DNA of 64,000 bases from an uncultured Victivallis sp. (GTDB lineage: Bacteria; Verrucomicrobiota; Lentisphaeria; Victivallales; Victivallaceae), in contig CALXOA010000052.1 in assembly GCA_944389895.1 (NCBI GenBank), positions 1-64,000 on the forward strand, read 5' to 3'. Under the pieces are notes generated by a model. The model worked only from the letters and a program-made list of their open reading frames with translations. It did not search any database and was not told the DNA's origin. Position numbers and translations under genes: made by a program. Of this stretch, positions 11,682-14,446 are shown in pieces. Within the stretch, counting starts at the first letter, position 1. Every line of letters begins with the position of its first letter.

Positions 11682-13382
11682 TTACAAACGCCCGAGCATC
11701 TCCCGGAAAGGCGCGAGCTCAGGGACGTTCTCAATCAGTTCGGCGGGGGTCCGGTTGGATTTATCGGGGGAAAATCCACGTTCCCGCAGCAGTTTCAGCA
11801 GCAGATCGAAATCCCTGAGCCGCTCCGCGCGAAGGGCCTCCTTCTCGGCCGGAATCTCCACCGTGAAACGGGCAACGTCGTGGAAAGGCATCGTCAGCAC
11901 CGCCCGGTTGCACTCCGAAGCGAACAACACATTCAAAGCATTTCTGGCAAAACCGCGTTCGACGGAGTTTCCGGTCACCGCGTAACGCAGAAGCCTCGTC
12001 ATATCCCCGTCAGACAGGGCAAAACCATACCGGTCAAGAAGCCGCCCGGCAACCGTCGCAAACCGGTAGGAAGGAAGCGCCGCCATTCCGGCCCGGTTCT
12101 CGACCCAGTCACGCGAAAGCTCGCCTGCAACCGGTCGAACCCCGGCGGCAAACCAGCGCCGCAGCTGGTCTTCGTCGTACCGGACCAGAAGCGCATCCAG
12201 AAATGCCTGCCCCGGAGTGACATTCAACCGGCTCTCCGCCTCACGGATCTCATCCGATAGAGCGGCATTCCGGGCGCGTGCCGCTTCGATGGCGGCCGGG
12301 GCCTCGCGCAGAATCGCCGGATTCGGATCCTCTCCGCAGTGAAACTGAGGCGGTTTCGGCAACGGAACAAACAATGCGATCAGAAATGCCGCCCCGATCC
12401 CCGCTGCAATCTTTGCCGAGCGGCGGTCACAAGGACGTGAAAACAGCCGGGCCCCCGCAGTCTCCGTCAGCTCCAGGAACAATCGCCGGACTCCGGCAAC
12501 CGTCCAGTCCGGCCCTCTTTGACCCCCGACGGAAGAAAGCAGATTCTCTATTTCAGCGGAGAGCTCCGCCGCGGACCGGGGGCGCGCGGACTGCTCTTTG
12601 GCCATCATGCGCATAACCAGTTCCGCCACCGGAACCGGGATCTCGGGATTCTCAATACGCGGATCCGGCACCGGATCGTGGAGCACACGGCTGATCGTCT
12701 CCAGCGGAGTATCGCCCTGATAAGCGATTCTGCCGGTCAGGGCCTCGTAGATGGTGGCCCCCAGACTGTAGATGTCGCTGCGGGCATCGACCCGCCCGGG
12801 GTCGATGCATTGTTCGGGGGATGCATATCCCGGCGTCCCGACCATCACCTTGCGTCCGTCGCCATCCCCGGCCGCGGTAATCCGTCTGGCGATGCCGAGG
12901 TCGGCCAGTTTGATCTCTCCGGACTCGGTCAACATGATGTTATCCGGCTTGATGTCGCGATGAACGATGCCGAGATCCGCGGCAAGTTCAAGGGCGCGGG
13001 AGACCTTCAGCGCCACGGTCAACGCCCACTCCCAGTCGAGGCGCCCGCCGCGATCAAGCAACTCCTGGAGAGAGCCGCCGTCGACATACTCCATCACCAG
13101 ATAGCAGAATCCGGCATCGACATCATGCCGGGCATCGATCACACCGACCACGTTGGGGTGGCTGATCCGGCAGGCGAGCCGCCCCTCCTCCTGAAACCGT
13201 TCAACGAAAGCGGGATCACGGATCATGATCTCCGGCAGCAGCAGTTTGATCGCGACCGGCACGCCGCCGTTCTCATCGCAGGCGAGGTAGACCTCTCCCA
13301 TGCCGCCACGGCCGAGACAGCGCTCGATCCGATAGTGACCGAGGAGATCCCCCTGTTGAAGCAAAGGCGAAACGACGTTCAT
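11682..13382 (-). CDS. Membrane-anchored Ser/Thr protein kinase (Hanks type)
   Basis: The 566-residue product phosphorylates Ser/Thr residues on proteins. Its catalytic elements are intact: Gly-rich loop GRGGMGEVY (24-32), ATP-binding Lys46 in VAIKL, catalytic HRDIKPDN (141-148), metal-binding DLG (161-163) and YASPEQ (187-191). One membrane helix near residues 324-341 separates the cytoplasmic kinase from a roughly 225-residue C-terminal domain with no recognised family. The start codon overlaps the stop of the upstream pseudokinase by 4 nt (ATGA), so the pair is translationally coupled. The pseudokinase is its most likely partner or regulator. Confidence 0.9.
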   Translation of the reverse strand: MNVVSPLLQQGDLLGHYRIERCLGRGGMGEVYLACDENGGVPVAIKLLLPEIMIRDPAFVERFQEEGRLACRISHPNVVGVIDARHDVDAGFCYLVMEYVDGGSLQELLDRGGRLDWEWALTVALKVSRALELAADLGIVHRDIKPDNIMLTESGEIKLADLGIARRITAAGDGDGRKVMVGTPGYASPEQCIDPGRVDARSDIYSLGATIYEALTGRIAYQGDTPLETISRVLHDPVPDPRIENPEIPVPVAELVMRMMAKEQSARPRSAAELSAEIENLLSSVGGQRGPDWTVAGVRRLFLELTETAGARLFSRPCDRRSAKIAAGIGAAFLIALFVPLPKPPQFHCGEDPNPAILREAPAAIEAARARNAALSDEIREAESRLNVTPGQAFLDALLVRYDEDQLRRWFAAGVRPVAGELSRDWVENRAGMAALPSYRFATVAGRLLDRYGFALSDGDMTRLLRYAVTGNSVERGFARNALNVLFASECNRAVLTMPFHDVARFTVEIPAEKEALRAERLRDFDLLLKLLRERGFSPDKSNRTPAELIENVPELAPFREMLGRL

Positions 13383-14446
13383 CGGGACATCTCCGTATTT
13401 TCGTAATTGCGCAGGGCCTCGAGATACTCCCGGAGCCGGCTCTGTTCCGCCTCCAGCCGGTCGAGCTCCCGGCGCAGTTCGCCCGCTTCAGCGGAAACGG
13501 GAACAGGCGTCGGCGGCGGGATCGCCCGGAACCAGGATACACCGCGGCAGACAAGGGTCAGCAGCAGTAATGCTCCGAATGCGGCGCAGAGCCAGTCGAT
13601 CCAGCTGAAACTGCGCAAGGATCCGGCGAGAAAGCCGCCGCGACCGCGGTGCGGTACCGCCTGTTCATCGAGCCGCCGCAGTTCGGGGGGAGGCGTCGGA
13701 ACGATCTCCCCGCGAATCAGATTCACCGAAGCCAGCAGCTCTTCGGCGCTGCGGAAACGCTTCGAACGGATCGGCGACAGAAGCCGCGCGATCACTTCGG
13801 CCAGCGAAACGGGAATCGACGTATCGAACTTCCGCGGATCCCCTTCATTCTCCGGCGGTTTTCGGCCGATCAGGAGCTCGAACAGAACCACGCCGACCCC
13901 GCGGAGATCATCATCGAGCGAAGTTCCGCTGATGCTCAGGACGGAAGACTCCCGAAAATCCAGTTTCAACAGCCGGTAGTCCGGAGTGAATACAAAGCTG
14001 GAAGCACTGATGTCACCATGATGGAGTCGTGCAGCCTCCCATGCGCAGAGAGCTTCGGCGGCGGTGTGGAGCACCGTCATCGCGTCGGAGGGAGAAAAAC
14101 GGCCGAAAAGGCGGAAATCGCCGAGGGTTTCCGGCGCGCACTCTTCCAGCACGGCATAGGCGAAGTTGCGGGTGTCGTCGAATCCGGCTTCGAACACCCG
14201 CCGGATCGACCTGGCCTGGGCGGCGGCAAGCGCCTGTTCCCCGTGCAGAAATTCCTCTTCGGCCCCTTTCCGCAGCAGCACCTTCAGAAGTCGTTCGGTG
14301 TCGAGGCTGCAGTGATGAACCCGATAGAGGCGGAAATCCCCGCAGACGACCCCGTCGTCGGAGAGTTCATACTGCTCAATGAAATCGCCCTTCCGGAGAA
14401 CTCCGGCAGTCGTCGGAACACGTTCTTCCGCTGCTTGCAGAGACAT
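13379..14446 (-). CDS. Membrane pseudokinase with C-terminal coiled coil
   Basis: The 355-residue protein has a kinase-like fold but lacks several catalytic residues. There is no Gly-rich loop, the catalytic loop reads HGDISASSF (143-151) with the usual Lys and Asn replaced, and the DFG triad is DFR (163-165). A Lys resembling the ATP-binding one (LLKVLL, near 55) remains. A single membrane helix near 285-305 is followed by a Pro stretch and a heptad-rich segment (about 320-348), likely a dimerising coiled coil. It is immediately upstream of an intact kinase with a 4 nt overlap. Residual activity cannot be excluded; a scaffold or allosteric role is inferred. Confidence 0.78.
   Translation of the reverse strand: MSLQAAEERVPTTAGVLRKGDFIEQYELSDDGVVCGDFRLYRVHHCSLDTERLLKVLLRKGAEEEFLHGEQALAAAQARSIRRVFEAGFDDTRNFAYAVLEECAPETLGDFRLFGRFSPSDAMTVLHTAAEALCAWEAARLHHGDISASSFVFTPDYRLLKLDFRESSVLSISGTSLDDDLRGVGVVLFELLIGRKPPENEGDPRKFDTSIPVSLAEVIARLLSPIRSKRFRSAEELLASVNLIRGEIVPTPPPELRRLDEQAVPHRGRGGFLAGSLRSFSWIDWLCAAFGALLLLTLVCRGVSWFRAIPPPTPVPVSAEAGELRRELDRLEAEQSRLREYLEALRNYENTEMSR

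Follow-up and report, generated by a model that had tools for sequence, protein, structure and literature searches.

A membrane pseudokinase gene overlapping the gene of an active-type Ser/Thr kinase in an uncultured Victivallis species, with a possible allosteric relationship between the products

The stretch of DNA considered here, called the window below, comprises the first 64,000 nucleotides of contig CALXOA010000052.1 from an uncultured Victivallis sp. (assembly GCA_944389895.1, 3.76 Mb). On its minus strand, two overlapping genes encode proteins related to Ser/Thr kinases (Table 1). An earlier reading of this DNA (the original prediction) had described them as a membrane pseudokinase followed by an intact membrane kinase, and both open reading frames (ORFs) lie exactly where it had placed them, joined by an ATGA. 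The stop codon of the first gene and the start codon of the second share bases, so the two proteins are probably translated together. Each has a single hydropathy peak, at residues 282-300 and 323-341 respectively, in keeping with the one membrane helix that had been claimed for each.

Table 1. Positions in the window of the gene pair and its parts
Feature	Positions	Strand	Remarks
Pseudokinase gene	13379-14446	minus	355 amino acids; kinase-fold domain, one membrane helix and a helical tail of ~36 residues
Pseudokinase, kinase-fold domain (residues 20-246)	13709-14389	minus	VIA-align against PknB 2fum_B (model range 16..246)
HGD instead of HRD (residues 143-145)	14012-14020	minus	followed by ISASS, without the catalytic Lys and Asn
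DFR instead of DFG (residues 163-165)	13952-13960	minus	beginning of the shortened activation segment; no Thr loop, no APE
Predicted membrane helix of the pseudokinase, residues 282-300	13547-13603	minus	hydropathy 2.02; helix 283-306 in the model
C-terminal helix of the pseudokinase after the membrane span, residues 319-354	13385-13492	minus	leucine heptads, possible coiled coil; helix in the model
GGAG before the kinase start	13391-13394	minus	8 nt 5' of the second ATG
ATGA overlap, pseudokinase stop and kinase start	13379-13382	minus	4 nt
Gene of the active-type membrane Ser/Thr kinase	11682-13382	minus	566 amino acids
Kinase domain of the downstream kinase	12576-13334	minus	HRDIKPDN, ADLG, GTPGYASPE
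Predicted membrane helix of the downstream kinase, residues 323-341	12360-12416	minus	hydropathy
All-helical C-terminal domain behind the kinase membrane helix, ~225 residues	11685-12359	minus	presumed extracytoplasmic

A Pfam search with the upstream protein of the window returned no kinase match; among this protein and its three orthologues, two matched Pkinase, with a best expectation value (E) of 4.5e-9. The AlphaFold2 model, made from a four-row alignment, has a mean predicted local distance difference test score (pLDDT) of 78.4. Most blocks of the kinase domain score about 90, residues 161-180 are weaker (66-67), and residues 251-282 fall below 50. The best VIA-align match of this model is PknB of M. 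tuberculosis (2fum_B; Z 22.6, root-mean-square deviation 3.0, 225 residues), and Z was at least 8 for all 999 of the Foldseek-preselected chains that were aligned. Foldseek itself ranked S. aureus PknB first (4eqm_A, E 9.6e-12) and listed 3otv, the domain of Rv3910 (MviN), in ranks 6 and 8. Further, a profile of the four proteins matched 761 different sequences in the PDB (E <=0.001), with StkP and PknB on top. The model places the upstream protein in the Hanks-type protein kinase superfamily, with the bilobal fold of its members.

To describe the catalytic machinery, we tabulated residues in four pseudokinases (one from the window's genome, G000, and three from other genomes of its genus, G075, G072 and G069; letters below are in this order), in their four partner kinases, and in 66 other kinases encoded elsewhere in the order, which a profile built from the active partners had gathered; a fifth pseudokinase, from G027, was kept apart. 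The beta3 Lys, which is present in 4/4 partners and 65/66 other kinases, reads K, R, E, H in the pseudokinases. The Ala two residues before it, the C-spine Ala, is L, I, T, E (Ala in 4/4 partners and 60/66 others), and the alphaC Glu is G, R, R, R (Glu in 4/4 and 64/66). Three positions are invariant in the partners and in all 66 of the other kinases: the HRD-Asp (D, N, A, C in the pseudokinases), the catalytic-loop Asn (S, T, L, N) and the DFG-Asp (D, G, G, G). The catalytic-loop Lys is Ser in the window's protein. The span from the DFG-Asp to the alphaF-Asp has shrunk to 18, 20, 34 and 24 residues, compared with 39-43 in the partners and 37-55 in the 66 others. The GxGxxG motif is gone from the pseudokinase; the register of the Gly-loop varies between two alignments, and the motif is restored in neither. 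The HRD-His and the alphaF-Asp are retained in all four.

The window's pseudokinase is the least decayed of the four orthologues: it retains the beta3 Lys (Lys55), the HRD-Asp and the DFG-Asp, without the rest of the residue set of an active Hanks-type kinase. The orthologues in G075, G072 and G069 have lost all three. The original prediction had pointed to HGD, DFR and the missing Gly-loop, and all of these are as described; the losses of the alphaC Glu, of the loop Lys and Asn and of the activation segment make the stronger case. Indeed, HGD and DFR alone are weak evidence for a pseudokinase, because the window's copy is the mildest and because HGD followed by Lys and Asn is also found in kinases of this genome that look active (own_L048 and the 745-amino-acid protein of L052). 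Judged by its residues, the upstream protein is probably unable to phosphorylate. An apparent beta3 Lys-to-Ala change in own-genome locus L055 was dropped as an alignment slip on inspection by eye, and loci L029, L079 and L211 were set aside as fragments.

The downstream protein was said to be an intact kinase, and this holds: it scores 150.2 bits against PF00069 (cut-off 31.7), the tabulated catalytic positions are intact in all four partner kinases, and the residue set is that expected of an active-type Hanks kinase. Its nearest likeness is to the PknB/PASTA receptor kinases, with which it shares the kinase domain, the one membrane helix and the presence of a C-terminal part beyond; the pseudokinase, too, has the fold of PknB. 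Unlike those kinases, it falls below the 450-bit cut-off of the NCBIfam model PknB_PASTA_kin (275.9 bits, residues 15-284 only), is without a PASTA repeat in the Pfam results, carries a helical C-terminal domain, and is encoded with a separate dead kinase. The model of that C-terminal domain is all-helical (mean pLDDT 72.9), and its best fold match in the PDB by Foldseek reached only E 0.12. Ankyrin-like repeats were considered for this domain and are unsupported: single-member Pfam matches have E >=0.019, and the best PDB matches have E 0.12 by Foldseek and 0.31 by sequence. Elsewhere in this genome, a weak match to the same part (E 0.017, in G000:C67) falls, by ORF reading, in an unrelated protein. 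Many PADLOC PD-T4-6 models match the kinase domains, and they behave as general kinase models.

Conservation of the pair, which the original prediction had proposed to examine, is borne out. In a search of 78 genomes of the family, clear pseudokinase orthologues were found in G075, G072 and G069 (E 2e-34, 3.8e-27 and 3.5e-12; 29-36% identity), and all other genomes gave only weaker kinase matches (E >=1.2e-8). The gene order, the 4-nt ATGA overlap, the membrane helices and a catalytically intact partner are kept in 4/4 pairs. A profile of the partner's C-terminal domain, run over 137 genomes of the order, matched strongly in the same four (E <1e-86) and in five further genomes at E 6.5e-4 to 0.0077. 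In a draw of 387 genomes from the phylum it found G000, G075 and G072; G069 is absent among the matches listed, and presumably was not drawn. No relative of the pseudokinase was found in the viral contigs searched. The flanking genes, as read by eye, differ among the four loci, and the conserved unit is therefore the pair itself. Further, the pseudokinase frames are open and full-length in all four at 25-37% identity, which argues for selection on a protein.

In a tree whose bootstrap had not settled, a branch supported at 100/99 has all four pseudokinases on one side, and the partners group in a single clade with support of 98/98. End branches are 1.1-3.1 for the pseudokinases vs 0.5-0.9 for the partners. 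The topology tests on the origin of the pseudokinases are unsafe because of these long branches: a single clade of pseudokinases and partners was not rejected (p 0.373), nor was a single origin of the four and the G027 pseudokinase (p 0.344), nor a grouping of the latter with its own neighbour kinase (p 0.097), and the unconstrained tree places the G027 protein apart from the other four. On these tests, the pseudokinase may have arisen by tandem duplication of its partner, and the dead kinases of the two genera may have one origin or two.

How might the two proteins work together? In the eukaryotic pairs HER3-HER2 and STRADalpha-LKB1, the dead member of the pair switches on the live one allosterically. 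The same is described for Fam20A and Fam20C. With all three pairs we draw a likeness of working only and not of family membership. We lean towards a comparable arrangement here, namely a heteromer in which the pseudokinase allosterically controls its partner kinase. The pair would form a two-gene receptor module of a transmembrane pseudokinase and a transmembrane Ser/Thr kinase, the helical and presumably extracytoplasmic domain of the latter being sensor-like. The pseudokinase domain would be a constant allosteric companion of the live kinase domain, bound to it through a contact of the PknB N-lobe type; the membrane helices and the helices after them, which are modelled behind both spans, would hold the proteins together; and the pseudokinase would set when the live kinase is on. 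We infer the common topology, the co-translation, the contact and its surface, the preference for activation over inhibition, and the signal.

The contact has precedents. For PknB, allosteric action of a back-to-back dimer has been proposed (PMC6333020), and the MviN domain is described in a 2025 review as a back-to-back dimer formed via L750 and D793, analogous to residues of other kinases (PMC12599244). Mutants of PknB at L33 and D76 are among the structures listed in our fold search. L33 of the PknB back-to-back dimer lies seven positions ahead of the beta3 Lys. This position is Leu in 5/5 pseudokinases and in 51/66 other kinases, and G, S, S, V in the partners, a pattern that was noticed post hoc and in which the four partners represent one lineage. 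The pattern is compatible with a pseudokinase that keeps a docking face no longer present in its partner, whose pairing with itself would then be poor.

Several observations weigh against such a heteromer. Overlaps of 4 nt are frequent between bacterial genes. The high conservation of the 66 comparison kinases is partly by construction because of the profile used to collect them. Retention of the Leu is weak evidence, because Leu is common in ordinary kinases, and its absence from the partners means that any contact would be unlike the symmetric dimer of PknB. The original prediction had further suggested that a C-terminal coiled coil of the pseudokinase could mediate assembly. Heptads are indeed present in the tail of the window's protein (shuffle p 0.0015) and marginal in G075 (0.07), but the pattern is not conserved among the pseudokinases, being unsupported in those of G072, G069 and G027 (0.40, 0.27 and 0.41). 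Behind the membrane helix of the four active partners, the values are 0.16, 0.35, 0.39 and 0.30, and for the active partner of G027 the value is 0.025. Finally, only 4/9 genomes of the genus carry the pair, so that it is dispensable there: the five others gave no pseudokinase match at E 0.001 and no match to the partner's C-terminal domain at E 0.01. Some of the genomes searched are incomplete assemblies.

Of the other explanations, the one that survives best is that the pseudokinase is a scaffold or substrate adaptor, the flexible stretches of which are phosphorylated by its neighbour and then recruit other proteins, the activity of the kinase being unaltered. We regard this as unlikely, while giving it real weight. 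MviN offers a precedent, since it recruits FhaA according to the review (PMC12599244). Residues 251-282 of the window's protein have low pLDDT, and the pseudokinases of G072 (L036 7686-9380) and G069 (L037 9220-10767) carry long N-terminal extensions before the kinase fold, of 196 and 168 residues, with Ser, Pro and Gly making up 35% and 28%. However, the extension is not a constant feature, as only 19 residues precede the fold in the window and 25 in G075. Nor did reading the ORFs by eye reveal an FHA gene beside the pair, no profile search for FHA having been made.

Alternatively, the pseudokinase may be a negative regulator that holds the kinase off in an unproductive dimer until a signal separates the two. 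There are pseudokinases of the histidine-kinase type that modulate an active membrane kinase, RocA with CovS being a case. The anatomical data fit such inhibition equally well, and the order of the genes would have the inhibitor made before the enzyme; on the other side, the sequence data do not separate inhibition from activation. We consider this explanation improbable, and more so than the scaffold.

It is very improbable that the upstream protein of the window's species has residual or altered catalysis. The retained Lys55, HRD-Asp and DFG-Asp would allow the idea, and SelO and SidJ are pseudokinases with new activities (PMC12599244). Yet the protein no longer has the alphaC Glu, the catalytic-loop Asn and Lys, the Gly-loop or most of the activation segment, the Ala before the beta3 Lys is Leu, and the three orthologues, which have lost each of the three key residues, are still paired. 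That the gene is a decaying duplicate without function is hardly credible: its fast evolution would fit, but four intact frames, a constant order and overlap, and the retention of the membrane helix and of structural residues do not.

Bacterial pseudokinases are largely unexplored experimentally according to the 2025 review, in agreement with the original prediction, which had called paired control little studied in bacteria; EssB/YukC and MviN are membrane pseudokinases with known roles (PMC12599244). With MviN and the ActPs3 family, which is annotated mainly in actinobacteria, the window's pseudokinase shares the kinase fold, a shortened activation segment and a C-terminal membrane region, as these features are given there (PMC12599244). 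It differs in that motif degradation is complete in those proteins, whereas the window's copy keeps K, D and D, which the three orthologues have lost; further, MviN is larger, a membrane protein on which peptidoglycan synthesis depends, and its operon, as described in that text, is without a kinase (PMC12599244). EssB/YukC is likewise a membrane pseudokinase with a degraded Gly-loop and an attenuated activation loop; unlike the present protein, it is part of the type VII secretion machine, and it is not described as paired with a kinase (PMC12599244). It is absent among the best 50 matches listed of either fold search. Two further classes outlined in the review do not fit (PMC12599244): the DYD pseudokinases have DYD, a beta3 Arg and no alphaC Glu, whereas no DYD stands at the DFG place in any of the four proteins and a beta3 Arg only in that of G075; the GLW pseudokinases have GLW for HRD, whereas the pair's pseudokinases have HGD, HGN, HGA and HNC. 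Our literature search, of limited coverage and thus not proof of absence, found no report of a bacterial Ser/Thr pseudokinase overlapping its own active membrane kinase. Since the likely partner is known from gene order, pseudokinase control in bacteria becomes directly testable from one gene pair, which makes this pair a clean test case.

The pair may belong to a wider pattern. In G072, a third kinase directly precedes it, making a trio, and G027, of another genus in the same family, has a trio of zinc-ribbon kinase, pseudokinase and membrane kinase. The G027 pseudokinase is very diverged, with LYN for HRD and EPG for DFG; it retains the beta3 Lys, the alphaC Glu and a membrane helix, and overlaps the membrane kinase by 17 nt if the MNNSS codon is the start. 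The zinc-ribbon kinase was named by eye from its Cys pairs, and its profile was run over the 137 genomes, giving 20 loci at >=341 bits; a further match of that strength, G052:C44, was left out. The gene downstream is a canonical-loop kinase at 12 of the 20 (G028, G047, G052, G108, G045, G026, G054, G025, G109, G106, G105 and G021; loci L114-L117, L120-L123, L125-L127 and L130) and a pseudokinase at two (G072 and G027), and no kinase was seen within ~1.5 kb at six. The window's genome is among these six; in it, the zinc-ribbon kinase and the pair share a contig but are 58.8 kb apart. A hydropathy peak stands behind the kinase domain in 11 of the 12 canonical second kinases (in the part seen) and in none of the 19 zinc-ribbon kinases scored, G109 having been left out for its broken frame. 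Tandem kinase operons therefore recur in the order, with a dead kinase second in two genera.

These facts raise the tentative possibility, which we hold more loosely than the heteromer itself, of a dedicated heterodimeric receptor of kinase and pseudokinase, possibly formed twice from tandem kinases and sometimes with a zinc-ribbon kinase in the row. In it, the dead partner would be an obligate allosteric switch, a counterpart of HER3-HER2 and Fam20A-Fam20C. A scan with the partner kinase over a collection of one genome per species, which may omit records closely related to the window, speaks against dead neighbours being common. Among the best 80 of 572 relatives, a small sample, flanks of <=2.5 kb held no kinase-like ORF of at least 180 codons without a canonical catalytic loop; the same broken-loop filter recovered the five pseudokinases among other loci. 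All 80 match the kinase domain and none extends beyond query residue 377, so that there is no full-length partner orthologue among those 80. The best 10 named loci are from Lentisphaeria, Lentisphaerae or Oligosphaeraceae, and the lower ones include many Planctomycetota, in keeping with a probable place of the window's genome in the Lentisphaeria.

Other kinase loci showed minor peculiarities. At L125 (G109:C111), and also at L079, an in-frame TAA right after HRDIKP breaks the frame of the zinc-ribbon kinase, which may reflect a genuine break, an error of assembly or unusual decoding. A divergent kinase-like protein of ~250 amino acids precedes a membrane kinase at L063, L069 and L100 (G021, G045 and G069), and possibly at L073 (G135); at L063 and L069 it carries CHGDIRYTNL and LFDLG and is itself preceded, as judged by eye, by a PP2C-like phosphatase.

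The neighbours of the pair in the window were likewise named by eye. Upstream lies a flank of ~350 bp and then a divergent regulator-like gene; 133 bp downstream, on the same strand, is an isocitrate dehydrogenase-like gene (10289-11548, minus strand). A link between the latter and the pair was dropped, as none of the other three loci with the pair showed this gene. The plus-strand ORFs 7721-9109, 9343-10374 and 14379-14759 are probably chance frames of GC-rich DNA, the first two being long and antisense to likely genes. Finally, the ORF at 15818-16522 on the plus strand encodes a protein whose N-terminal motif resembles that of type IV pilins (FTLIELLVVIAIIAILAAILLPAL), also named by eye, and an ORF of a similar kind is found at L037 2369-3301.

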